A stretch of 39,789 nucleotides of DNA from an uncultured Anaerolineaceae bacterium (GTDB lineage Bacteria > Chloroflexota > Anaerolineae > Anaerolineales > Anaerolineaceae): positions 66,372-106,160 of the forward strand of contig CAKMKJ010000039.1 in the NCBI GenBank assembly GCA_927443345.1. The letters are read 5' to 3'. The notes beneath the pieces were generated by a model. The model was given only the letters and a program-made list of their open reading frames with translations, searched no databases and had not been told where the DNA came from. The translations under genes were made by a program, and so were the position numbers. Shown here piece by piece: positions 22,934 to 35,446 of the stretch. How positions within the stretch are numbered: the stretch's first letter is position 1; each line of letters starts with the position of its first letter.

Positions 22934-23263
22934 TTATATATTTCTATCTTTTTTAGGCTTGGGAACTGGAAGCTCTTTTTCAGTAATTGTGATTAATTCA
23001 CACAGCCATTCCTTATCATCAAATTGCTCTTCAATTAAAAAGGATAACTTCGCTCCTTGATAAGGTGGTGCTTCGACAACCTCGCCAATGAATGCCCTGC
23101 CGCCTTCAGTTGGTTTTACAAACAGTTTATTGTCACACACTAAAGCAACAACTTTTTCGTTGCAATAAATGGCATACTCCCCGAACATCTTACGATACCT
23201 GATTGCGCCGGCCAGTTCCATTTGTTCAACCAGAAATTTTATAAAATCTTCATCAGATGCCAT
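22934..23263 (-). CDS. TfoX N-terminal domain protein
   Basis: 109 aa. Starts MASDEDFIKFLVEQM, then RYRKMFGEYAIYCNEKVVALVCDNKLFVKP, which is the TfoX-N pattern (Arg-x-Met-Phe-Gly, then Gly and Lys-Pro). The second TfoX-C domain is missing, as in most stand-alone versions. In gammaproteobacteria TfoX activates competence; for stand-alone TfoX-N proteins in other phyla no role is known. A GGAGAG is present upstream. It follows the DUF1697 gene by 53 bases on the same strand and may be co-transcribed. This pair of families is often seen together. Confidence 0.92.
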   Translation of the reverse strand: MASDEDFIKFLVEQMELAGAIRYRKMFGEYAIYCNEKVVALVCDNKLFVKPTEGGRAFIGEVVEAPPYQGAKLSFLIEEQFDDKEWLCELITITEKELPVPKPKKDRNI

Positions 23264-23316
23264 GTCTCTTTCTCTCCTAATTATGAGATTTATAAACGGA
23301 TGAAAACAAACGCTTC

Positions 23317-23856
23317 CTAATCATTAATCAGCATCTCCCTGAGTTTGCACACTGTGTTCCAGTTGCGATCAGTCATATCCACACCGATGATCTTTTCAGC
23401 CGTCGCAGCCAGCCTGGATTTACCCACCCCATCCGGTGCATAAAGGTAAAACACTTTTGGGGTAAGGCAGTAGTGTTCGCTCTCGGTCTTTAAACTGGTA
23501 AGCTTCTCGATATTAACATTCTCAGGCTCTGCAGCCAAAAACCCCAGATGCAGGGTGCTTGGCTCCGCATCTGGCACCGGAAACGGATTTTCATCAATGG
23601 CATTTTCAAGTTCATCAGCGGTCAGGAGCAACACTTTAGGCGCAAAACCGCACTTTTTTTCAATTTCAAGACTGATAGTGATGGAAAATTCAATCGTATC
23701 CACCTCATTGTATTGAAAAACTACATTGCCGCTCTGAATGTAGGTCTTCACACTTTGAGCCCCCAATCCTTCGAGGGTTTTTACCAGAACATCCATCGGC
23801 AATTTATTTTTGCCGCCCACATTAATCCCGCGCAATAGTGCGATGTATGCTTTCAT
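23317..23856 (-). CDS. DUF1697 protein
   Basis: 179 aa. The N-terminus YIALLRGINVGGKNKLPMDVL and TYIQSGNVVFQ are diagnostic of DUF1697, as is the late YLYAPDGVGKSRLA and NWNTVCKL. A ferredoxin-like cytosolic fold is known for the family; function is not. The coding sequence seems complete, without frameshift. Likely in one unit with the TfoX-N gene that follows. Confidence 0.94.
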   Translation of the reverse strand: MKAYIALLRGINVGGKNKLPMDVLVKTLEGLGAQSVKTYIQSGNVVFQYNEVDTIEFSITISLEIEKKCGFAPKVLLLTADELENAIDENPFPVPDAEPSTLHLGFLAAEPENVNIEKLTSLKTESEHYCLTPKVFYLYAPDGVGKSRLAATAEKIIGVDMTDRNWNTVCKLREMLIND

Positions 23857-24367
23857 TTATCCAATCCTTAGCTTTCCACGAAAAAAACTTCAATTTTCGG
23901 CATGTAAAAAAGTAACAAGTTTCTATTTTAATTCCTAATGGCTTTTTGGTCTTGCATTCATCGATGACTGTGCTTGGGGTTTCCTTCACCATTCGAAACA
24001 AAAAATGATTGTCAAATACAACGTACTGCTCGCTTAATCAATATCTTTAGATAACGCAACACTATTCTTACCAGTAGCCAAACACAACAATTCTACATGA
24101 GAAACCTGATGAATCTTTGAATGTTTAATCAGATATCACTTCTAATTAAATATTTATCAGCGCTATCCCACCAACCGGTATCGGGCATATAACCGGAGTT
24201 CGTGTATTCCAACCGCACCTTCAATAGCTTGATAAAGACACTCAAAAGAGTGTCGTCTTAATTATATTCGGTCTAATCCCTTCGAGGGATGATATCGCAG
24301 CACCACTATTCCCTTAAAAAGGTTCTGGCAATTTGAGTTTATCCTGCAAACCAAAAAATCTAAACCC
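23857..24367. other. Intergenic region with gene debris, no intact gene
   Basis: About 510 bases. On the minus strand 24129-24257 reads 42 sense codons to a stop, including the protein-like stretch LEYTNSGYMPDTGWWDSADK, but without start signal or upstream continuation; it may be the tail of a lost gene. A hairpin GACACTC-aaaa-GAGTGTC lies at 24237-24254. TCCCTTCGAGGGA near 24286 is a short palindrome. Confidence 0.45.
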
Positions 24368-24478: not shown

Positions 24479-25423
24479 ATGAAACACATTAAGTTATTCA
24501 GTATTCTTGTCACAGTCTCAATGTTAATAGCTGCATGTGCCCCTGTGGCAACCCCAGCTCCTACTCAAGCTCCAACAATGGCCGAACCTGCTGCAACCGA
24601 AGCACCAGCGACTATTGTTGATATTGCAGTCAACGATGGCCGCTTCACTACACTAGTAGCTGCCCTCCAGGCAGCAGGCTTGGTAGAAACGCTTCAAGGT
24701 GCTGGCCCAGTCACTGTTTTCGCCCCGACAGATGAAGCCTTTGCCAAGTTGCCTGCAGGAACTGTTGAAGACCTGCTCAAACCCGAAAACAAAGATAAAC
24801 TGGTTCAGATTCTGACCTATCATGTCTTATCGGGTAAAGTGATGGCCGCGGACGCAGCACAACTGACTAGTGCTGAAACGGTTGCAATGCTGCCCCTCAC
24901 AATCAAAAGCGATATGGGCAAGGTAATGATTAATGATGCTACTGTTGTTTTGGCTGATGTTACCGCTTCTAATGGTGTGATCCATGTGATCGACACAGTT
25001 CTTTTACCCCCCAGTGATATCGTTGATACAGCGGTCGCAGACGGCCGTTTCACCACCCTTGTTGCGGCTGTTCAGGCTGCCGGGTTGGTTGACACGCTCA
25101 AGGGAACAGGACCTTTTACCGTCTTCGCCCCGACTGATGATGCCTTTGCCAAGCTGGCCCCTGGAACTGTCGAAACACTCCTGTTACCCGAGAACAAAGA
25201 TCAGCTTGTTAGTATCCTCACCTACCATGTCGTTGCCGGAAGTGTTATGGCTGCAGATGTAGTCAAACTAACCAGTGCTGACACTCTTAATACCCAATCC
25301 GTTACGATTAAAGTAGAGGATGGTAAGGTTTACATCAATGATGCACAGGTGATCATCACTGACATTCTCACTTCCAACGGAGTGATCCATGTAATTGACC
25401 AGGTCATTCTACCCCCGCAATAA
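24479..25423 (+). CDS. Lipoprotein with two fasciclin (FAS1) domains
   Basis: 314 aa. Signal peptide with lipobox LIAAC (Cys20), a Pro/Thr/Ala linker to about 45, then two FAS1 domains (about 46-178 and 180-314). Each has FTTLVAA, TVFAPTD(E/D)AFAKL, LTYHV and SNGVIHVID, the H1 and H2 signatures. FAS1 domains mediate adhesion to surfaces, sugars or other cells. The two domains are very similar even in DNA, indicating a recent internal duplication. The ribosome binding site AAAGGAATTAG precedes the ATG. Very strong promoter upstream, so the protein may be abundant. Single gene, followed by a hairpin terminator. Confidence 0.95.
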
Positions 25424-25656: not shown

Positions 25657-26523
25657 ATGAAAAAAAATAATCGAATTGCCTTACTTAGTCTACCAATAAT
25701 CATCCTAATCGGCCTTTTGGTCGCTTTAGCAGGCAGCCAGGCAGGGCATTCAATCGGTAGCATCCCCATTTTTGCATTATGTGTGGGATTAGCCTTTCTT
25801 ATCCAGTGGCTGGTTTTTATCCCGTCTTTCCGGCTACAAACTGAAAAATACTTCGACCTGACCGGAAGTATCACCTACATCACTGTGATAAGTGTTGCTG
25901 CTTTATTGAGCGCAGGGCTAGATGCAAGATCTATCCTTCTTTGGGCTCTAGTCGTTATCTGGGCAATCCGTTTGGGCACTTTTCTGTATAATCGAATCCA
26001 CAAAGCTGGCAAAGATGACCGCTTTGATGAAATCAAGCCTTCCTTTGTTCGTTTTCTGAATGTTTGGACGATCCAGGGGTTGTGGGTTACCTTCACCATG
26101 GCTGCTGCGCTGGTTGCCATAACCACAACAAACCGCAAAGAGTTTGATGCTTTTGCCATTATCGGTCTACTGGTTTGGGTTTTTGGGTTCTCAATTGAGA
26201 TTATCGCTGATCGTCAAAAAAGTCGCTTCAGTGCAAACCCGGAAAACAAAGGGAAGTTTATTCAGACCGGTTTATGGTCTCGTTCTCGCCACCCCAATTA
26301 TTTCGGTGAAATCGTACTCTGGATCGGCATAGCATTGATCGCTTTACCTGTTCTTCAAGGTTGGCAATGGGTCGCCTTGATCTCTCCCGTTTTTGTCACT
26401 TTGTTAATCACTCGTGTCAGTGGAGTTCCTCTGCTTGAAAAGAAAGCAGATCAAAAATGGGGCGGACAAGCAGATTATGAAGCCTACAAAAAGTCAACGC
26501 CGGTATTGATTCCTCGCTTGTAA
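25657..26523 (+). CDS. DUF1295 / steroid-reductase-like membrane protein
   Basis: 288 aa with about eight membrane helices. The C-terminal signature LWSRSRHPNYFGEIVLWIGI and the late LLEKKADQKWGGQADYEAYK place it in DUF1295, related to 3-oxo-5-alpha-steroid 4-dehydrogenases and ICMT-type methyltransferases; the His-Pro-Asn-Tyr element binds cofactor. IWAIRLGTFLYNRIHKAGKDDRFDEIK is also typical. Enzyme activity is likely but unassigned; fatty or isoprenoid lipid reduction is the usual guess. AAGAAGGAA lies before the ATG. Followed by a hairpin at 26528-26555. Confidence 0.9.
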   Translation: MKKNNRIALLSLPIIILIGLLVALAGSQAGHSIGSIPIFALCVGLAFLIQWLVFIPSFRLQTEKYFDLTGSITYITVISVAALLSAGLDARSILLWALVVIWAIRLGTFLYNRIHKAGKDDRFDEIKPSFVRFLNVWTIQGLWVTFTMAAALVAITTTNRKEFDAFAIIGLLVWVFGFSIEIIADRQKSRFSANPENKGKFIQTGLWSRSRHPNYFGEIVLWIGIALIALPVLQGWQWVALISPVFVTLLITRVSGVPLLEKKADQKWGGQADYEAYKKSTPVLIPRL

Positions 26524-27294: not shown

Positions 27295-27664
27295 ATGAAA
27301 CACTTCATGAATATTCTGGCAGTCTTTAATAGCAAAGTCGACAACCGAGATCTTTTAGATCAGGCTGTGGATTTGGCACAAAGGAATTGGGCTACCTTGA
27401 CGGTGATGGATGTCATTGAAGAAGCACCATCCAGTCTTGCGAAACTAAGAGCAAATGTATCTTTTGAAAGGGGATGCGGGGGATTTGACTTCTGAACTAG
27501 CCCAGGCAAAGGCAATTGACCTGATTGCAATCGGAACAGTCAGCCGCAAAGGTATTGCTGGTTTTCTTATTGGCAACACAGCAGAAAAAGTACTGCAGCA
27601 GGTGAATTGTTCGGTACTAACCATCAAGCCTGAAGGGTTTACCTCCCCTGTAAAAACAGATTAA
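27295..27664 (+). pseudogene. Universal stress protein, UspE-like, deleted and frameshifted
   Basis: Reading from ATG 27295 gives MKHFMNILAVFNSKVDNRD through ATLTVMDVIEEAPSSL, the start of the first domain of a UspE-like tandem protein. After about 55 codons the frame changes. From about 27458 the second frame gives LLKGDAGDLTSELAQAKAID, then IAIGTVSRKGIAGF and IGNTAEKVLQQVNCSVLTIK, the end of the second domain. Intact relatives have about 290-300 residues, so roughly 170 residues are deleted and the halves are joined out of frame. The ATP-loop motif Gly-x2-Gly-x9-Gly is partly kept at the end. It lies directly before the flavocytochrome gene. Not functional as drawn. Confidence 0.85.
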
Positions 27665-27710
27665 GTGTAAATCACACTGTAATGGATGCAAAAAGGAAGG
27701 ATGAAATAGT

Positions 27711-29039
27711 ATGACGAAACGTATCTTTCAGGGAATTTTTTGGGTCGGTATTTACTTGATAATCACTCTTGCACCGCTGTTAATTTTACTTGCAGGCCCT
27801 CGACCTGTGGGGCGAGAATTTTGGCGTGATCTTTCGGTGGGCTTAGGATACTGTGGCTTGTCGATGGTAGGGCTACAGTTTGTTTTAACAGCCCGTTTTA
27901 AGGTAATTAAAGCGCCATATGGCAGCGATATTGTGTATTTTTTCCACCGCCAAATTTCACTAGTCACTTTTATTTTGATTGCTGCCCATCCGCTTATTCT
28001 GTTCGTTTTTGATCCTCAACATCTCGGCCTCCTTAACTTGGTCACAGCGCCTTGGGCGGCTCGTTTTGGGGTAGTGGCTGTCATTTCTCTTGGAGTAATG
28101 ATTAGTTTATCTGTCTGGCGTAAAAGACTGAAGATTGAATACGACCGATGGCGGATTTGGCATGGCATCCTTGCTACCTGTGTGATGGCGCTGGCCATGA
28201 TTCACGTAGAATTGAGAGGTTACTACCTGAACACTCTTTGGAAACAACTTTTTTGGGGATTATATGGGGCTTTTTGGGTCGGTTTATTAGCATGGGTACG
28301 TGTGATCAAACCATTCTTGTTATTACGCAAAGCATATCTGGTCGAAAAGGTTATTCCTGAACGTGGTAATGCATGGACGCTTGTTTTACAGACAATGAAC
28401 CACGAAGGTTTACGCTTCCAACCCGGGCAATTTGCTTGGATTACAGCATGGGATACGCCCATTCGCGATCACGAACACCCATTTTCATTCTCAGGTAGTG
28501 CGATGGATAGCTCACAGCTATCCTTCACGATAAAAGAATTGGGAGATTTCACTGCTTCTATCAAGAACCTAACAAAGGGGCAACGTGTGTATGTGGACGG
28601 TCCATATGGGGCTTTCAGCATTGATCGTCACCCTAATGCACAGGGGTTTGTCTTCATCGCAGGGGGTATCGGAATTACACCGATGATTTCAATGCTGCGG
28701 ACCTTGGCTGACCGAGGAGATTCGCGCCAACTGACTCTCCTCTATGCCAATAAAACACTTGAAGGAGCTACTTTTCTGGAAGAAATCGAAAAATTGAACC
28801 TGATGTTAAACCTCAAGGTTGTTCATGTGCTGGAATCACCACCGGAAGGATGGACTGGTGAAAGAGGCTTCATAAACGCCGATATCTTGAAGCAATATTT
28901 ACCGGCAGATTTCAAACAAAATAGGGTTGAAATCTTTATTTGTGGGCCAGGGCCAATGATGAACGCTGTGGAAAAAATCCTCACAAAAATTGGCGTTCCT
29001 TTGGGCGATTTTCACTCTGAACGTTTTGACCTGGTTTAA
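27711..29039 (+). CDS. Ferric-reductase-like flavocytochrome b
   Basis: 442 aa. Six membrane helices form a ferric reductase-like domain with two pairs of heme ligands, His79/His93 and His151/His165, each 14 residues apart: a bis-heme layout. A ferredoxin-NADP reductase-like cytosolic part follows, with FAD motif HPFSFSG (256-262), GPYGAF, the NAD(P) motif GGIGITPMISML (318-329) and CGPGPMM (411-417). It should pass electrons from NAD(P)H through FAD and two hemes across the membrane to metal, oxygen or a quinone. All motifs are intact although the gene just upstream is broken. AAGGAAGG before the ATG. The 31-aa membrane protein gene starts 10 bases after it. Confidence 0.94.
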   Translation: MTKRIFQGIFWVGIYLIITLAPLLILLAGPRPVGREFWRDLSVGLGYCGLSMVGLQFVLTARFKVIKAPYGSDIVYFFHRQISLVTFILIAAHPLILFVFDPQHLGLLNLVTAPWAARFGVVAVISLGVMISLSVWRKRLKIEYDRWRIWHGILATCVMALAMIHVELRGYYLNTLWKQLFWGLYGAFWVGLLAWVRVIKPFLLLRKAYLVEKVIPERGNAWTLVLQTMNHEGLRFQPGQFAWITAWDTPIRDHEHPFSFSGSAMDSSQLSFTIKELGDFTASIKNLTKGQRVYVDGPYGAFSIDRHPNAQGFVFIAGGIGITPMISMLRTLADRGDSRQLTLLYANKTLEGATFLEEIEKLNLMLNLKVVHVLESPPEGWTGERGFINADILKQYLPADFKQNRVEIFICGPGPMMNAVEKILTKIGVPLGDFHSERFDLV

Positions 29040-29049
29040 AGGAGGACTC

Positions 29050-29145
29050 ATGCGACAGCGAGCAGCAACATGGTTGGCTATTTCAATTGGAGTGGTTGTA
29101 TTCTTTTTGGCAATTTTATTTGCTTTGCTTCAACAAAGCTACTAA
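29050..29145 (+). CDS. Single-helix membrane microprotein, 31 aa
   Basis: ATG at 29050 with a perfect AAAGGAGG six bases before it; stop TAA at 29143-29145. The product opens MRQRAATWLA, continues as one hydrophobic helix (residues 8-26) and ends LLQQSY. Basic N-terminus implies it faces the cytosol. The strong ribosome binding site and the 10-base distance to the flavocytochrome gene make it a real gene. Such tiny subunits often stabilise cytochrome-type complexes (like CydX for cytochrome bd); a comparable role here is a hypothesis. Confidence 0.8.
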   Translation: MRQRAATWLAISIGVVVFFLAILFALLQQSY

Positions 29146-29209
29146 ACACAAATGCATTCCATTTTAATATCATTTTCTTTTTATGCAGAAGAAACTATAA
29201 AGGCGAAAA

Positions 29210-29683
29210 ATGGTAAAAATAATTGGAAAATTCCTTGGTCTATTCGAACGCTTGATCGTTGGCAGCCTAATCCTAATGATGATAGTGGTTATATTTTTGT
29301 CAACAATTGAGCTGGGGCGAATGTTGGTTTTAGATATTATCACTCCACCCAATTACTTGCTTGATATCAATGAGTTATTGGATGTATTTGGTTTCTTCAT
29401 GCTCATACTAATAGGGGTCGAACTGCTCGAGACGATTCGCGCCTATCTTAACGAACATGAGGTGCATGTTGAGATAGTACTCGAAGTTGCCTTGATTGCT
29501 GTAGCCCGTAAAGTGGTCATCATTGATGTAAAAGAATTCTCCTCTGAAACTCTCTTGGCTATTGCAGCAATCGTAATATCCTTAGCAGGTGCATATTACC
29601 TTCAAAAGCGGGTCCGGAACAGGCATGATCATAGTGCAGGTAGTAAGAATCCAATAGAATCAACTGTTCCAAAAGTTCAGTGA
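29210..29683 (+). CDS. PsiE-like phosphate-starvation membrane protein
   Basis: 157 aa with four membrane segments: about 10-35, 55-77, 88-105 and 108-130. The core HVEIVLEVALIAVARKVVIIDV is characteristic of the PsiE family, as is LLDVFGFFMLILIGVELLETI. PsiE is induced by phosphate starvation and cAMP in Escherichia coli; its function is unknown. The start ATG has only a weak AAGG. It follows the 31-aa gene by 64 bases on the same strand and ends the flavocytochrome run. Confidence 0.88.
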   Translation: MVKIIGKFLGLFERLIVGSLILMMIVVIFLSTIELGRMLVLDIITPPNYLLDINELLDVFGFFMLILIGVELLETIRAYLNEHEVHVEIVLEVALIAVARKVVIIDVKEFSSETLLAIAAIVISLAGAYYLQKRVRNRHDHSAGSKNPIESTVPKVQ

Positions 29684-29824
29684 AATTGACCTTATGAAGC
29701 GATTCACAATTAACCGATTTATTTTGGCTCCATTTCATTCTTCTAACTGAGAAACAAGTTGATATTATGGATCACAAACGCAATAATAAAGTTAGATTAT
29801 CAACTTGATTCGGACACCTTATTT

Positions 29825-29867
29825 ATAACCCTCTGCTGACTAAAGGTTTTTAGTTTTGGAGGGTTAT
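29825..29867. terminator. Inverted repeat between the PsiE-like gene and CBS pseudogene
   Basis: ATAACCCTC (29825-29833) pairs with GAGGGTTAT (29859-29867); an inner ACTAAA/TTTAGT hairpin lies in the loop. It overlaps the end of the CBS pseudogene and may end transcripts from both sides. A second inverted repeat, CAAGTTGAT/ATCAACTTG, lies at 29755-29807. Confidence 0.5.
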
Positions 29868-30314
29868 TTCTTTAGAACTTTCCGAAGACCTGAAAAATAA
29901 TTTATGAGCTGCTCTATATGAAATCCCAATTCATCGATAAAATCTTTGGTCACATCACCGAGTGAGATCATACCGACAAGTTTTCATTCTTCCACAATCG
30001 GCAAGAAGCGAATGTGATTGTCCGTCAAAAGCATCATACACTCTTTTACCATTTGGTTTGGGTGAACAGAGATCAATTATCTAGTCATGACTTCTTCAAT
30101 ACTAGTCACCAACATGTTTATGAGATCAGGGCAGACTTTTCTAGCATAATAGCGCTCAATAAACAATCCCGATAATCTCCCCTTCCGCGATGGCCACAAG
30201 CGAGCTTATTAGTTTCTCTGCCATTAGTCTCAAGTTATCTTCAATGGTCGATTCCTTAAAAATAGACCATAAATGTACACTTTATATCTTAAGAATCTGT
30301 CACACTTTATTCAT
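29864..30314 (-). pseudogene. CBS-domain pair protein with four stops and a frameshift
   Basis: From ATG 30314 the minus strand reads MNKV*QILKI*SVHLWSI, then ESTIEDNLRLMAEKLISSL, EGEIIGIV, a frame change, ERYYARKVCPDLINM, EEVMTR*LISVHPNQMVKEC, DNHIRFLPIVEE*KLVGMI, SLGDVTKDFIDELGFHIEQL and a proper final TAA. This is a complete two-CBS protein of the short class (about 145 aa), which binds adenine nucleotides. The stops sit where relatives usually have Arg, Lys, an acidic or polar residue, and Gly, so they are recent point changes (two TGA, two TAA). Not translatable without recoding. It lies beside the P-type ATPase gene on the same strand. Confidence 0.9.
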
Positions 30315-30426
30315 ACTTTTCTACTGGACAAGTTTTTACATGGTAACCTGACAGAGATGGGCTGCAATTTCTCAAACAAATATTGGATGAAAAATCCTTC
30401 TCAAAGATTGGCTGGACCACCAAAAT

Positions 30427-33117
30427 TTATTCTTTAGCAACACTCAACCTTCGTCGAATCCATTTCTCGAATTCAATGACAATATAAGCAATCAAAGCGA
30501 CCGTTAAGACATTCAGCCAGAGTGCCAGCGAGATCGGTGCACTATCAAAGAGTTCGTTCATAAAAGGAGCATAGGTATACAATACCTGGATGAGCGCCAT
30601 AAGAATTGCGCCGCCCACCGCCCAGGGATTGGAGAAGAAACCTAATTGAAAAGGAGAGCGAGTCAGCGAGCGGGCGTTGAATAAATAGAATATCTCAACA
30701 AAAATGACCACATTAACAGCTACCGTACGAGCCTCTGGCAGCGAGGTCCCCCTGGACAGTTCATATTCAAATAATCCGAAAGACCCCGCTAAAATAATGA
30801 CACTTACCAAGACAATTCGCCAAAGCAGCGTCCCACTTAGAATGGGTGACTTGGGATTACGAGGCTTCCGCTGCATGATTCCAGGTTCTTTGGGCTCAAG
30901 CGATAGTGCAAACCCCAAAAACGCAGCCGTTACCATGTTGATCCACAATAACTGGATAGGAAGGATAGGTAACGTCGCTCCAGAAACAATTGCCGCCAAA
31001 AGCACCAATCCTTCACCTAGATTAGTAGGCAATGCCCAGGCAATGAATTTGGTCAGGTTATCAAACACACCCCTTCCCTCCTCAATAGCCGCTCTAATGG
31101 ATGCAAAATTATCATCGGTAAGGATCATGTCTGCAGCTTCTTTTGAAACGTCGGTACCAGTAATCCCCATTGCCACGCCTATATTGGCCTGTTTGAGAGC
31201 TGGAGCATCATTGACACCATCTCCGGTCATCGCAACCACGTGGTCGTGGGCTTGTAGTGCTTCCACAAGTCGCAGTTTTTGTTCAGGGGTTACACGGGCA
31301 AACACGTTTACCTTTTCAGCCTGTTCTATTAGTTCGATGTCAGAGAGTCTGGCCAACTCAGCTCCGGTTAACACAGTCGCGCAATCATCCTGGCATAACC
31401 CTATTTGTTGACCGATAGCAGCAGCGGTAAGGGCATGGTCGCCAGTGATCATTTTCACCGAAATACCCGCTGTATGGCAAGCCTGGATAGCATTAACTAC
31501 TTCTGGTCGAGGCGGATCCATCATACCCTGCAAGCCCAAAAGCGTTAGTCCATTAATGTCGTCGAAATTGATGGTCTTAGCTCCAGGCTTATCGTTGTAA
31601 GCGAATGCCAATACGCGCAGACCCTGCGAGGCCATCTGCTCCATTGCCTGACGAAACATCTCATTCGCACAAGATGAAACCTGGCCTGAAGGATCAAGTG
31701 CACCAGCACAACGATCAATCAACACTTCAGCAGCTCCTTTGACATATACTTTTCCATCGGCATGCAGTGTGGCCATGTACTGGTGTTGTGAATCGAAGGG
31801 AATCGAATCAAGTCTACCAGGATAGGTTGCCAGATCAGGATCCAAAGATGCCTTGCGGGCAGAGACCAGCAGCGCACCTTCAGTTGGGTCACCCTGCACA
31901 CTCCAGACCCCTTCTGACTGCACCACCTGGCTATCATTACAAAGCAGCCCGGCTTTGAGGGTCTCAAGAACAGCAGCGTCACTGAATTTAGCTGAGGGAA
32001 CTGAACCTTTTGGATAGATTTCTCCCACCGGCTGATAACCAACACCGTTTATCGTGTAAACTCCGCCCAGCGTGTGGATTTCTTGAACGGTCATTTGGTT
32101 TTGGGTAAGTGTGCCGGTTTTGTCTGAACAGATGACGGTCGTAGACCCCAGGGTTTCAACCGCTGGTAAGTTGCGGATGATAGCTCGGCGGCGGGCCATT
32201 CGCGAGACGCCAATTGCCAGCGTCACAGTTAACGCAGCAGGCAATCCTTCCGGGATGGCACCCACAGCCAAAGCGATGGCTGCCATAAGTGTTTCAACAA
32301 CCGCCTGACCGCGCATGAGACCAATGCCAAAGACTAGCGCAGATAACGCCAAAATTGTAATCAAAAGTAAACGGCTGAATTGACCGATTTTGCGCGTCAG
32401 CGGTGTTTCTAACTCAGCCGCGCTGGCAATTAACTGAGAAATTCTTCCCACCTCAGTACTGTCACCGGTAGCGACAACTACACCAGTCGCAGCGCCGTAC
32501 GTGACAAGGGTTGAAGCATAAGACATGTTTCGGCGTTCGCTTAAGATAGCATCGTGAGAAGTAACAAGAGCAGCGTCTTTTTCCACAGGGAGTGACTCCC
32601 CGGTAAGGGCTGATTCGGTTACCTGCAAATCACGTGAGGCCACAAGGCGCAGATCAGCCGGCACTCGCGCTCCGGACAAAAGCTGAACAATATCGCCAGG
32701 TACTAGTTCCGCAGCTGGAATTCGTACTACTTTGCCACCGCGAATGACAATTGCTTCGGTTGTCATTGTTCTCGCCAATGCCAAAATGGACTGCTCGGCG
32801 CGAGATTCCTGAATAAACCCAATAATCGCATTTATTAGAACCACTCCAAAGATTACTGCTGCGTCAGTCGGGTCTTTCAAAACCGCAGTCACCAGACTGG
32901 CAACCAACAAGATAATCACCAGAGGGTTGTTAAACTGAAGTAGAAAGCGTACCAACGGGCTTTGGCTTTTCTTGGGGGTCAGCATGTTCAGCCCAAAGCG
33001 TTGTTGACGGTGTTTTACCTCGAATACGTCCAACCCCTTCTCGATATTCGTGTCCAAGAGGTCAAGTACTTCATCTGCAGGAAGATGATGCCAGTGTTTG
33101 CCGAGCAAGGAGTTCAT
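30427..33117 (-). CDS. P-type cation-transporting ATPase (P2-like)
   Basis: 896 aa from the ATG at 33117 ([10 protein letters not shown]), with AAAGGA before it; the frame opens 36 bases earlier. It pumps a cation across the membrane using ATP. It has an N-terminal cation ATPase domain, TGES (172-175), PEGLPA in helix 4 (289-294), the phosphorylated Asp332 in CSDKTGTLT, and [11 protein letters not shown]. Helix 6 reads [16 protein letters not shown]: the Asp of the usual Ca-pump motif NLVTDG is Ala (residue 731). This fits a less studied branch resembling mycobacterial CtpF, so calcium cannot be assumed. All catalytic motifs are intact. A structured leader lies upstream at 33184-33267. Confidence 0.95.
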
Positions 33118-33183
33118 ATAAAAGTCCTTTACGTATCTCGAAGTCAAATCCAATTCATTAGTAACCCATGTTTGTTAATTTTA

Positions 33184-33267
33184 CCTAAATGTCTTGATTG
33201 CTGCTAGCATAGCCCTTTTCATGGACCTGTTTATTACAGGCCAAGGAAAAATCAATAGGCATTTAGG
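33184..33267 (-). promoter_or_regulatory. Structured 5' leader of the P-type ATPase gene
   Basis: On the minus strand CCTAAATG (33267-33260) pairs with CATTTAGG (33191-33184). TTGATT/AATCAA continues this stem inside. The interior holds a 7-bp hairpin GGCCTGT/ACAGGTC with loop AATAA and a small GCTA/TAGC hairpin. The element ends 66 bases before the ATG. It has the shape of a riboswitch-like leader, but I match it to no known class; a decayed mobile repeat is the alternative. Confidence 0.4.
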
Positions 33268-33537
33268 AATTTATTCAGTCTGATTTGGGAGCAAGCATAT
33301 CAACCTTTCACCAGCCGAAGCATATCAAGCATCACGTCCACCCATGCTCAGATGGCCAACACCATCAAAAAGAAATCCCCAGAGTGGAGTTCCAAGTCGC
33401 ACTTATATCGAATTATTAAGGTTTTCCATCGCCAACAAATCGATGACGAAGCAGATGGTCATAAGACCATTCCTCACTATAAACAGCAGCCTTTGGGAAA
33501 CCAGCGAGGTTGAAAATTTCATAGTATTCTGCTTATG

Positions 33538-33866
33538 CTAAAGTTCTAAGAAATTGTGAACTACCTTCCAGTTCGGAAGATCAAGTATACCTATTAAGAG
33601 TTCATAAATAATTACTGAAAACACATACAGGAATAACCATTAGGAAATAATCAACCAATTTAATCAGCATAATAGTGAAATTTGGATCTTTGCTGGACCT
33701 GACGATAATGAGATTTAAAGCATTGATGGTTTTCACTACACCAAACTCTGCAAGAGCAGCAAACAGCAATGAAACTACAACAATGGATCCGAGATAACTG
33801 GTTTTTCAAAAAACTTACCTGGAGATTTCTCTTCAAAATTCTTCTCTGTCTTCGATTCTCTTAATA
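33538..33866 (-). pseudogene. UPF0114/YqhA-like membrane protein, frameshifted
   Basis: On the minus strand three frames join into one protein: ESKTEKNFEEKSPGKFFEKP, then YLGSIVVVSLLFAALAEFG and TIMLIKLVDYFLMVIPVCVF, then IYELLIGILDLPNWKVVHNF to a stop at 33540-33538. LVDYFL followed by a helix and YEL-I--LDLP-W-VVHN matches the UPF0114 (YqhA) pattern as I remember it for Chloroflexota. At least two frameshifts and no start codon remain. The expected last helix may be further decayed in 33330-33537, where phrases such as GFLFDGVGHL occur. It begins a few bases after the dihydrofolate-reductase-like pseudogene. Confidence 0.6.
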
Positions 33867-33871
33867 TACCT

Positions 33872-34435
33872 TTAGGGTTCATAACGCAGCACCACAATGC
33901 CACAGGGAAAACTGAGCGAAGACTTGAGGGTCAAATCCAATCTTTTTTCCAAACCTTCAAAAATGGACATTCCCCTGCCAATGGCCGTTGGATTAATAAA
34001 CAGATGATACTCATCAATCAAATTTGCCTTGATCAAAGCTGACACAAAAGTGCCGCCACCATAAGCGATTATGTCGCTGCCCGGTTGCTTTTTCAAGCTC
34101 AAAATCTCGTCTGACAGGTCACCTTTGGCCAAAACGGTGTTGTCCCAATCAGATTGTGCCAGTGTATTGGTAAACACCACTTTATGTGTACCCGCGAATT
34201 TTTGTCCTGCGGCATGATCCGGAGCTTTCGGGTTTGCAGCCACCCCCGCCCAATGGGGAATGAAACCCTGGGCCAGTTTGCGTCCCAGTACAATACAATC
34301 CACCGGATCTGTGAGTTCTTTCACTTACTGGTTGATCTCATTATCCCAATCAAACACCATCCAATCCATTTCGCCATTTGCGCCGGCGATGAAACCGTCT
34401 ACGGTCATTTGCACTTGCAGCTTTAGCTTTCGCAT
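33872..34435 (-). pseudogene. Dihydrofolate reductase / RibD-C family protein with one stop
   Basis: ATG at 34435, with AAAGGGA upstream, reads MRKLKLQVQMTVDGFIAGAN, then GEMDWMVFDWDNEINQ and TAA (34327-34325) at codon 37. The same frame continues without interruption for 150 codons through KELTDPVDCIVLGRKLAQGF, IIAYGGGTFVSALIKANLID and LFINPTAIGRGM to a normal end. This is a complete 187-codon member of the RibD-C/dihydrofolate reductase-like family, NADPH-dependent reductases of unknown substrate. Only the one codon, probably once a Tyr, is wrong. A GTG directly after the stop could permit restart, but without the N-terminal strand and binding loop the product would hardly fold. Confidence 0.85.
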
Positions 34436-34636
34436 CATTCACATCCCTTTCTGAGTGCACCTTGGTGCTCTCTTGGGTCATTGTAACAACATATCAACCA
34501 CAAAACAAATAAATATTATTTCTGAAATTGCATTCCGCAACAAATTGATAATCAAAAAACTTTATTAACACACCTAACCGGATAATTCAGCTAAAAGAAG
34601 TACAATATATATGAGTAATATTGAAAGGGTGAAATT

Positions 34637-35446
34637 ATGAAAGAATCATCTTCTGAATCCAAAGCACAAATCGTCTATTTCTCACATGGCGGCGGACCGC
34701 TGCCCCTACTCGGGGATGAAGCTCACAAAGCCATGGTGGCATTTATGCAGAAACTGCCTGAGCAACTACACAAACCCGACCTGATTTTGGTGATCAGTGC
34801 CCATTGGGAAGAAAATACCGCCACCCTGCTGTCAGCGGAAAAACCGGTACTGTTTTACGACTACTACGGGTTCCCCGCTCGGGCATACGAGATTCAATAC
34901 CCTTTACCAGGCAGCCCATCTGACGCAAAACGCATTGTGGAAATTTTGGAAAAGAATAATATCCATGCAAAACTTGACCCTCAGCGCGGGTTCGACCACG
35001 GCGTGTTCATCCCGCTTAAACTAATGTACCCCCAGGCGGATATCCCCTGTTTGCAGCTATCTCTGATTGCCGGACTGAATCCTTCTAGTCACCTTGCCCT
35101 TGGCAAAGCCCTTCGCGAATTGAACAACGAAAACATCCTTGTAATTGGCTCCGGTTTCTCTTTTCATAATATGCGCGCTTTTTCAATGGAATCAAAATCC
35201 GCCCCTGATGCGGGTAATGATGCTTTTCAGAATTGGTTGATCGAAACCTGCACCGCTGACCTACCCCAGACAGAACGTGAGCAGCGTCTGGTGGAATGGG
35301 CCAAAGCGCCTGCCGCCCGCTATTGCCATCCGCGTGAAGAGCATTTATTACCCCTTCATGTATGCCAGGGAATGTCTGATAAACCGGCCAAGTTAATCTT
35401 TGATGATCTGATCATGGGCAAACGCGGCGTCGCTTTTAAGTGGTGA
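34637..35446 (+). CDS. LigB/DODA-type extradiol ring-cleavage dioxygenase
   Basis: 269 aa, the class III family that includes plant DOPA 4,5-dioxygenase and Escherichia coli YgiD. Metal-binding His residues fit His17 in FSHGGGPLPLLG and His56 in ISAHWEEN; further conserved His are His121 in GFDHGVFIPL, His177 in GFSFHNMRAF and His231/236/241 in HPREEHLLPLHV. Fe(II) or Zn(II) should be bound, and a catechol-type ring opened with oxygen; the substrate is unknown. In an organism from anoxic habitats this is unexpected but not rare. AAGGGTG lies before the ATG. Followed by a strong terminator. Confidence 0.92.
   Translation: MKESSSESKAQIVYFSHGGGPLPLLGDEAHKAMVAFMQKLPEQLHKPDLILVISAHWEENTATLLSAEKPVLFYDYYGFPARAYEIQYPLPGSPSDAKRIVEILEKNNIHAKLDPQRGFDHGVFIPLKLMYPQADIPCLQLSLIAGLNPSSHLALGKALRELNNENILVIGSGFSFHNMRAFSMESKSAPDAGNDAFQNWLIETCTADLPQTEREQRLVEWAKAPAARYCHPREEHLLPLHVCQGMSDKPAKLIFDDLIMGKRGVAFKW

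Follow-up and report, generated by a model that had tools for sequence, protein, structure and literature searches.

The catalytic subunit of the NADPH oxidases NOX1 to NOX4 has a small membrane partner, p22phox. Small subunits also accompany other membrane enzymes, and CydX (37 amino acids) and KdpF are named as such in PMC10903887 and PMC4325964. Among bacteria, the NADPH oxidase of Streptococcus pneumoniae (SpNOX; PDB 8qt6 and 8qq7) is described in PMC11031084 as a minimal core that is monomeric and constitutively active and whose physiological role is unknown. Here we describe a locus in an uncultured Anaerolineaceae bacterium where the gene for a NOX-like flavocytochrome is followed directly by a gene for a 31-amino-acid protein. 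The locus lies in a window of 39,789 nucleotides (G000:C39:66372-106160), the whole stretch of DNA that was analyzed, from a draft genome of 3.67 Mb in 94 contigs.

The flavocytochrome gene (27,711 to 29,039, plus strand) is intact and has its catalytic motifs, and Pfam assigns the product to the ferric-reductase/NOX type. The predicted model (mean predicted local distance difference test score of 86, predicted template modeling score of 0.81) has six long helices together with flavin adenine dinucleotide (FAD) and NAD(P)H domains, and its two H-x13-H heme pairs, H79/H93 and H151/H165, fall in helices 3 and 5. SpNOX is the closest solved structure by sequence (E 3e-21) and by predicted fold (template modeling scores of 0.78/0.86; Foldseek E 5e-23). 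The two proteins share the six helices with an FAD/NAD(P)H domain behind them, the H-x13-H pairs of helices 3 and 5, an NADPH motif, and CGP, but they are only 22 to 23% identical, and the window enzyme differs in its FAD motif and in the conserved microprotein gene directly behind it. Measured against the filters for bacterial NOX enzymes given by Hajjar et al. 2017 (PMC5676040), the protein shows both His-x12/14-His pairs, at helices 3 and 5 of a six-helix domain, as well as the NADPH motif (GIGITP), but its HPFSF misses the final residue of the FAD motif H[PSA]F[TS][LIMV]. This counts against a full assignment, and we therefore call the protein NOX-like and not a NOX by that filter; several orthologues carry HPFSI or HPFSL, which fit the motif. 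NAD(P)H would donate the electrons, which would travel by way of FAD and the two b hemes to the outer face, where O2, ferric iron, or another oxidant is a candidate acceptor. In-frame stops interrupt the flavocytochrome orthologues of G169 (L058, two stops), G525 (L124), and G363 (L125), and in G169 the small open reading frame (ORF) remains open behind the broken gene.

The most economical reading of the locus is that the regulators of a gained block are being lost and its electron-transfer core kept, with the loss of backbone neighbors as well. We consider it probable, with some confidence, that a stress/redox block was gained, that its decay has been staggered, and that a membrane module with its 31-amino-acid partner has been kept. 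According to this model, a block from another member of the Anaerolineae would have been inserted between DUF1697 and DUF7000/UPF0114/RibD, after which the universal stress protein (Usp) and CBS-pair genes of the insert and the DUF7000, UPF0114, and RibD genes of the backbone would have decayed one by one, RibD very recently or as a variant. The flavocytochrome, the 31-amino-acid protein, PsiE, and a cation-pumping P-type ATPase would still be under selection as a membrane module.

A sequence-only reading of part of the window had described one half-decayed stress/energy cluster. All eight features that it named were found in place by ORFs, Pfam, profile searches, and congener copies: four intact ORFs (flavocytochrome, 31-amino-acid protein, PsiE, and P-type ATPase) and four broken genes (Usp, CBS pair, UPF0114, and RibD/DHFR-like), the lesions of which were confirmed by alignment. 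The catalytic motifs of the ATPase and the flavocytochrome have indeed been kept. The single cluster itself did not hold, as RibD and UPF0114 are part of the chromosomal backbone of the genus and the insert is longer than described, with genes for fasciclin and DUF1295 proteins inside it. A DUF7000-type gene that four congeners carry has been lost as well.

Extent and origin of the insert

Relative to four congeners (G001, G007, G012, and G013; loci L038, L041, L039, and L037), the window contains an insert of about 9.6 kb between DUF1697 and DUF7000/UPF0114/RibD, at 23,857 to about 33,430 (edges approximate, the right one at about 33,153 to 33,541). It encodes a fasciclin protein, a DUF1295 protein, a two-domain Usp, the NOX-like flavocytochrome, the 31-amino-acid protein, PsiE, a CBS pair, and the P-type ATPase. 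All four congeners keep the backbone order TfoX_N, DUF1697, DUF7000-type gene, RibD, and LigB, and the cassette genes are absent from this site in each of them. DNA homology to the congeners stops at 23,849 to 23,873 and picks up again in RibD at 33,867 to 33,960; at the protein level, homology resumes in UPF0114 at 33,541 to 33,816. Because the backbone order is kept without the cassette genes and DNA homology breaks at these points, we treat the stretch between them as the insert and RibD and UPF0114 as backbone. Between DUF7000 and RibD, two of the congeners have UPF0114 (intact in G012, frameshifted in G001) and the other two (G007 and G013) have a gene of 358 amino acids; in G013, DUF1697 and DUF7000 are separated by an extra gene that has a GGEEF motif.

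The gene content of relatives and the flavocytochrome tree suggest that the block was probably gained laterally, from another member of the Anaerolineae. Among 15 congeners, a single one (G009) has a flavocytochrome orthologue, at 54% identity, the others showing distant matches alone, and PsiE had no match in any of the 15. The window flavocytochrome forms a clade (support of 100/96) with those of Leptolinea sp. HRD-7 (G116, locus L007) and of another Anaerolineales genome (G897, locus L008), and the G009 protein falls outside this clade, together with G088. Flavocytochrome identity is 75 to 76% to G116 and G897, for which RpoB identity is 77% and 74%, respectively, and 63 to 64% to G112 and to Levilinea saccharolytica (G035, locus L013), for which RpoB identity is 78 to 79%; G332, which gave no match, and G009 were left out of the RpoB comparison. 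Both Leptolinea and Levilinea belong to the family of the window genome. It is this mismatch with RpoB, along with the grouping apart from G009, that favors lateral gain. In G897, intact Usp, flavocytochrome, 31-amino-acid ORF, CBS, and ATPase genes have the order and orientation seen in the window, without PsiE, and thus the linkage described from the window is found with intact genes in a relative. The Leptolinea locus has the flavocytochrome, the 31-amino-acid ORF, and PsiE, and a gene for a four-CBS protein lies further along.

Vertical inheritance with many losses is the main rival to lateral gain, and the points in its favor weigh against our reading. In this case the block would be ancestral in the family, the other congeners would have lost it, and the decay seen here would be the last stage of the same process. 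Flavocytochrome orthologues are in fact widespread in the family, and the enzyme is also being lost elsewhere (broken in G169, deleted in G022). An ancestral block is harder to reconcile with the position of G009, the sole congener with an orthologue, in another clade, with the backbone of four congeners, which lacks the block and still includes the DUF7000-type gene, and with the identity to G116 and G897 that is out of line with RpoB. We regard it as unlikely, though far from negligible.

Just left of the insert genes, two short minus-strand stretches (24,268 to 24,312 and 24,074 to 24,145) look like remnants of the RibD C terminus and are possibly a trace of the insertion; positions 24,285 to 24,312 are 82% identical over 28 nucleotides to the RibD tail at 33,874 to 33,901, a weak match (protein E of about 0.2). 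As signs of an insertion mechanism, tRNAs and clear repeats were set aside, with no tRNA in the window and only weak repeats; integrases were not specifically searched for. In L008, a TfoX_N gene (L008:7483-7833) less than 1 kb away from the Usp gene is 68% identical to the window TfoX_N gene (22,934 to 23,263) near the left edge of the insert, which may be chance or a hint at the route of transfer.

The 31-amino-acid microprotein

The most valuable result is the single-helix microprotein, probably a small accessory subunit, that is encoded at 29,050 to 29,145 (plus strand), 10 nucleotides after the flavocytochrome stop codon and behind a Shine-Dalgarno sequence (AAGGAGG). Searches of Pfam and NCBIfam gave no family match for this ORF. 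A hidden Markov model (A1) was built from 29 family-level sequences, with a pass mark of at least 5 bits, and used to score 81 loci, one per genome, comprising the best matches of family, class, and phylum searches plus L008, all with enough sequence. The microORF scored at least 5 bits downstream of the flavocytochrome in 50 of the 61 orthologous loci (36 to 100% identity), in none of 20 loci of more distant homologues (27 to 35% identity), and after none of 207 control genes (best score, 3.2). Training sequences are present in 31 of the 61 loci; of the remaining 30 loci, 19 exceed 5 bits and 13 exceed 10 bits. In the 50 positive loci, the microORF begins 8 to 59 nucleotides behind the flavocytochrome stop codon (median, 12), and a Shine-Dalgarno-like tetramer precedes it in 47. 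Differences by codon position number 340:139:606 (38 nonindependent pairs, 60 to 99% amino acid identity), and the 84 nucleotides that follow are 37% identical; this bias and the low identity behind the ORF indicate coding constraint.

The association also holds genome-wide. When 147 genomes of the family were searched in six frames with A1, 45 matches in 44 genomes had an E value of 0.01 or below, and 32 of the 34 matches at 1e-4 or below sit 11 to 30 nucleotides behind the last matched flavocytochrome codon, a near one-to-one relation at the stricter cutoff. The match in G118 at this cutoff lies inside an open frame of 304 amino acids, with no flavocytochrome match in the surrounding 16 kb. 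In G022 (L195, contig C14, about 186298-186387), an intact microORF follows the last ten residues of the flavocytochrome (DFHSERFDLV), the remainder of which is absent, and the ORF can therefore outlive the enzyme for a time.

From conservation and operon structure, the most likely role of the 31-amino-acid protein is as a micro-subunit in a bacterial enzyme of the NOX type. It would pack on the flavocytochrome helices as an assembly or stability subunit, in the manner of CydX in cytochrome bd oxidase. Like the CydX, CcoQ, and KdpF types, it is a single-helix protein of roughly 30 amino acids tied to a membrane enzyme; unlike them, its partner is a NOX-type flavocytochrome, the association is putative, and it falls outside the families of Pfam and NCBIfam. 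The likeness to p22phox is by analogy only, p22phox being larger and unrelated. We give roughly even chances to the stronger proposal that, among bacterial NOX-type flavocytochromes, this protein is the first small membrane subunit dedicated to such an enzyme, present in several Anaerolineae families, needed to assemble, stabilize, or gate transmembrane electron flow, and thus a one-helix functional counterpart of p22phox. No report of a small partner of a bacterial NOX was found among the literature titles and abstract openings listed, a search with subscription papers and preprints outside its range.

Several observations weigh against a dedicated subunit. In PMC5676040, SpNOX was reported not to need a p22phox-like subunit. 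Eleven of the 61 orthologue loci lack a scoring microORF: in three (L129, L146, and L147) a similar hydrophobic ORF falls below the cutoff, in one (L065, genome G033) a weak match lies within a longer open frame, and the other seven have none. Of the 11 weaker genome-wide matches, 4 lie directly beside a flavocytochrome and the other 7 lie elsewhere. Finally, the ratio of nonsynonymous to synonymous differences per site (pN/pS) of the microORF against G897 is 0.35, from 30 codons only and above that of the Usp remnants; with synonymous sites close to saturated, the pN/pS estimates in this study are rough and their order alone is usable.

Instead of a subunit, the ORF might encode a toxic hydrophobic peptide or serve as a regulatory leader or an element of translational coupling, with no tie to the flavocytochrome beyond its position. 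It is short and hydrophobic with a positively charged N terminus, and its sequence is loosely conserved (mean column identity, 47%), all of which would suit such a role. The third-position bias and the ORF's own Shine-Dalgarno sequence fit it poorly, as does a position after the enzyme and not before it, with downstream genes that vary or run in the opposite direction; strong matches, moreover, occur almost only beside the flavocytochrome. We consider these alternatives improbable, and a subunit of the enzyme remains the preferred interpretation.

Gene loss in the insert and the backbone

Two genes of the insert are broken. The two-domain, UspE-like Usp remnant (27,295 to 27,664, plus strand) is 70% identical at both ends to an intact Usp of 358 amino acids in L008, but it keeps just the first ca. 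50 and the last ca. 70 residues, in different frames, with about 230 codons between them gone. Pfam recovers both pieces, the first below the curated cutoff (21 of 24 bits), and the intact L008 protein has UspE as its best NCBIfam match, at 171 bits under a cutoff of 227. The CBS-pair pseudogene (29,882 to 30,314, minus strand; 52% identical to an intact L008 protein of 144 amino acids) has four in-frame stops and one frameshift and was detected by profile search, with two stops within one domain. The lesions of this gene and of UPF0114 and RibD were read from frameshift-tolerant alignments.

In the backbone, three genes are affected. UPF0114 (33,541 to 33,816, minus strand; 56% identical to the intact G012 protein of 152 amino acids) has two frameshifts, lacks its C-terminal third, and was identified through the intact congener copy; a profile search of its own genome at an E value of 0.001 gave no match. 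In G001, UPF0114 (L038:16995-17474) is frameshifted as well, at other places, and the gene has therefore decayed independently within the genus. The RibD_C/DHFR-like gene (33,875 to 34,438, minus strand), supported by Pfam, has one in-frame stop and is 79 to 82% identical to open copies in G001, G007, G012, and G013. A second RibD-like gene, 30% identical, lies between DUF1697 and TfoX_N in G001 (L038:15197-15781). The DUF7000-type gene, next to or near DUF1697 in four congeners, is gone from the window apart from a possible, weak relic at 33,428 to 33,532 (minus strand), which is collinear with G012, the congener whose copy was scanned with Pfam. The score of this relic was matched by 16 of 1,000 shuffles against G012 but by 193 against G001 and 380 against G007. 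The interval 33,280 to 33,560 had been tried as a Pfam family without a match, before part of it was read as this relic.

Expressed as pN/pS, the lesions fall into an order. Against G897, the CBS remnant gave 0.57, the two Usp pieces 0.32 and 0.29, the flavocytochrome 0.21, and the ATPase 0.18; PsiE gave 0.15 against Leptolinea, and RibD gave 0.17 to 0.18 against four congeners, compared with 0.17 for a pair of open RibD copies. Because the values fall in this sequence, the CBS pair probably broke first and Usp later, and the RibD stop appears to be either very recent or a variant, the gene being under constraint in all other respects; as a single stop it could be an assembly or population variant. 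Real decay is thus found beside intact, constrained membrane genes, as the sequence-only reading had implied. The decaying insert can be read as an ordered series, in which the part-by-part loss of a probably gained module is visible at one locus.

That reading had further held that decay strikes soluble or sensor parts, as a signaling half that is no longer needed or exists elsewhere in the genome. UPF0114, however, is a membrane protein family, and the flavocytochrome is the part that is broken in G169 and deleted in G022. The lost sensors may be redundant: a profile search found 30 CBS domain matches in the genome, one of which is the window remnant, and a two-domain Usp exists on contig C35. 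Considered as a replacement copy, this tandem Usp was rejected, as it is 27% identical over 56 amino acids to the cassette type and hence no obvious substitute.

Neighborhoods of the flavocytochrome were compared in 31 loci, with the enzyme called in 30 including the window (not in L100), and in 11 control stretches; families present in at least three loci were tabulated, and single further Usp cases could be missed. PsiE relatives occur near the flavocytochrome in 4 of the 30 loci including the window, plus L015 (controls, 0 of 11), type II ATPases in 4 of 30 including the window (controls, 1 of 11), and intact CBS proteins of the window's cluster in 4 loci besides the window remnant (controls, 0 of 11). 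The cassette-type Usp was found in L008 and the window. In Leptolinea HRD-7 (L082:1190-6843), the flavocytochrome region is followed by the four-CBS protein and NAD-linked [NiFe] hydrogenase genes, and in another subgroup of seven loci the neighbors are methylmalonyl-CoA mutase and a Na+/H+ exchanger. Since neighbors differ among loci, the flavocytochrome and microORF form a constant core in otherwise variable surroundings. The conserved micro-partner, the loss in some lineages, and the recurrent neighbors (CBS, PsiE, P-type ATPase, two-component systems, and, in Leptolinea, NAD-linked hydrogenase) offer handles on the role of NOX-type enzymes in anaerobes.

The DosR dormancy regulon of mycobacteria includes Usp, CBS-pair, and type II P-type ATPase genes, and DosS/DosR combines a GAF-type HisKA_3 kinase with a NarL-type regulator. 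The window could then be a DosR-like dormancy unit whose signaling half is decaying as redundant, an idea that gains from the linkage of Usp, CBS, and P-type ATPase in L008, from the many CBS proteins elsewhere in the genome, and from a NarL-type (GerE) response regulator directly before the flavocytochrome in two relatives (L082 and L083). The kinase before this regulator, scanned in L082, has two GAF matches, HisKA_3, and HATPase_c; in L083 it is cut by the contig end. Unlike the DosR regulon, the insert has no NarL-type regulator or HisKA_3 kinase among its intact called genes. Half of the four decayed genes belong to the backbone, and the lesions differ in age by pN/pS, which gives no support to a signaling half that decays as a unit; each partner, in addition, is linked to the flavocytochrome in a minority of loci. 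We find such a unit quite doubtful, and a gained block with staggered decay accounts better for the locus.

Assembly errors as the source of the stops and frameshifts are very improbable: the genome is a draft in many contigs and RibD has one stop with normal constraint, but the large Usp deletion, the five CBS lesions, and the missing end of UPF0114 are too many or too large for single base-calling errors, and the G001 UPF0114 frameshifts differ from those of the window.

Other genes of the insert and its flanks

Two further membrane proteins of the insert are intact. PsiE (29,210 to 29,683, plus strand; PF06146, E 9e-29) is 79% identical to the L007 copy in the same position. The type II cation P-type ATPase (30,427 to 33,117, minus strand; 78% identical to L008) was assigned by Pfam and has DKTGT, TGES, GDGVND, and PEGLP together with N- and C-terminal cation-ATPase domains; its ORF opens at a TTG at 33,153, with the ATG at 33,117 judged the likelier start. 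It scored below three NCBIfam calcium-pump equivalog cutoffs (PMR1 type, 704 of 798 bits; SERCA type, 622 of 703; PMCA type, 447 of 507).

No Rfam RNA was found in the window at gathering scores, and the promoter and terminator scans, promoter-like sites included, stayed at chance level. On the left flank, the TfoX_N and DUF1697 backbone genes (22,934 to 23,856, minus strand) were placed by Pfam and congener gene order, and on the right flank a LigB-family gene (34,637 to 35,446, plus strand) was placed by Pfam and congener comparison. Within the insert, an intact DUF1295 membrane protein (25,657 to 26,523, plus strand; PF06966, E 7e-67) follows an intact two-domain fasciclin protein (24,479 to 25,423, plus strand; PF02469, E 1e-81). 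A one-domain relative of the latter (73 to 75% identical) occurs in L012, 3.8 kb upstream of the flavocytochrome and adjoining the ATPase of that locus.

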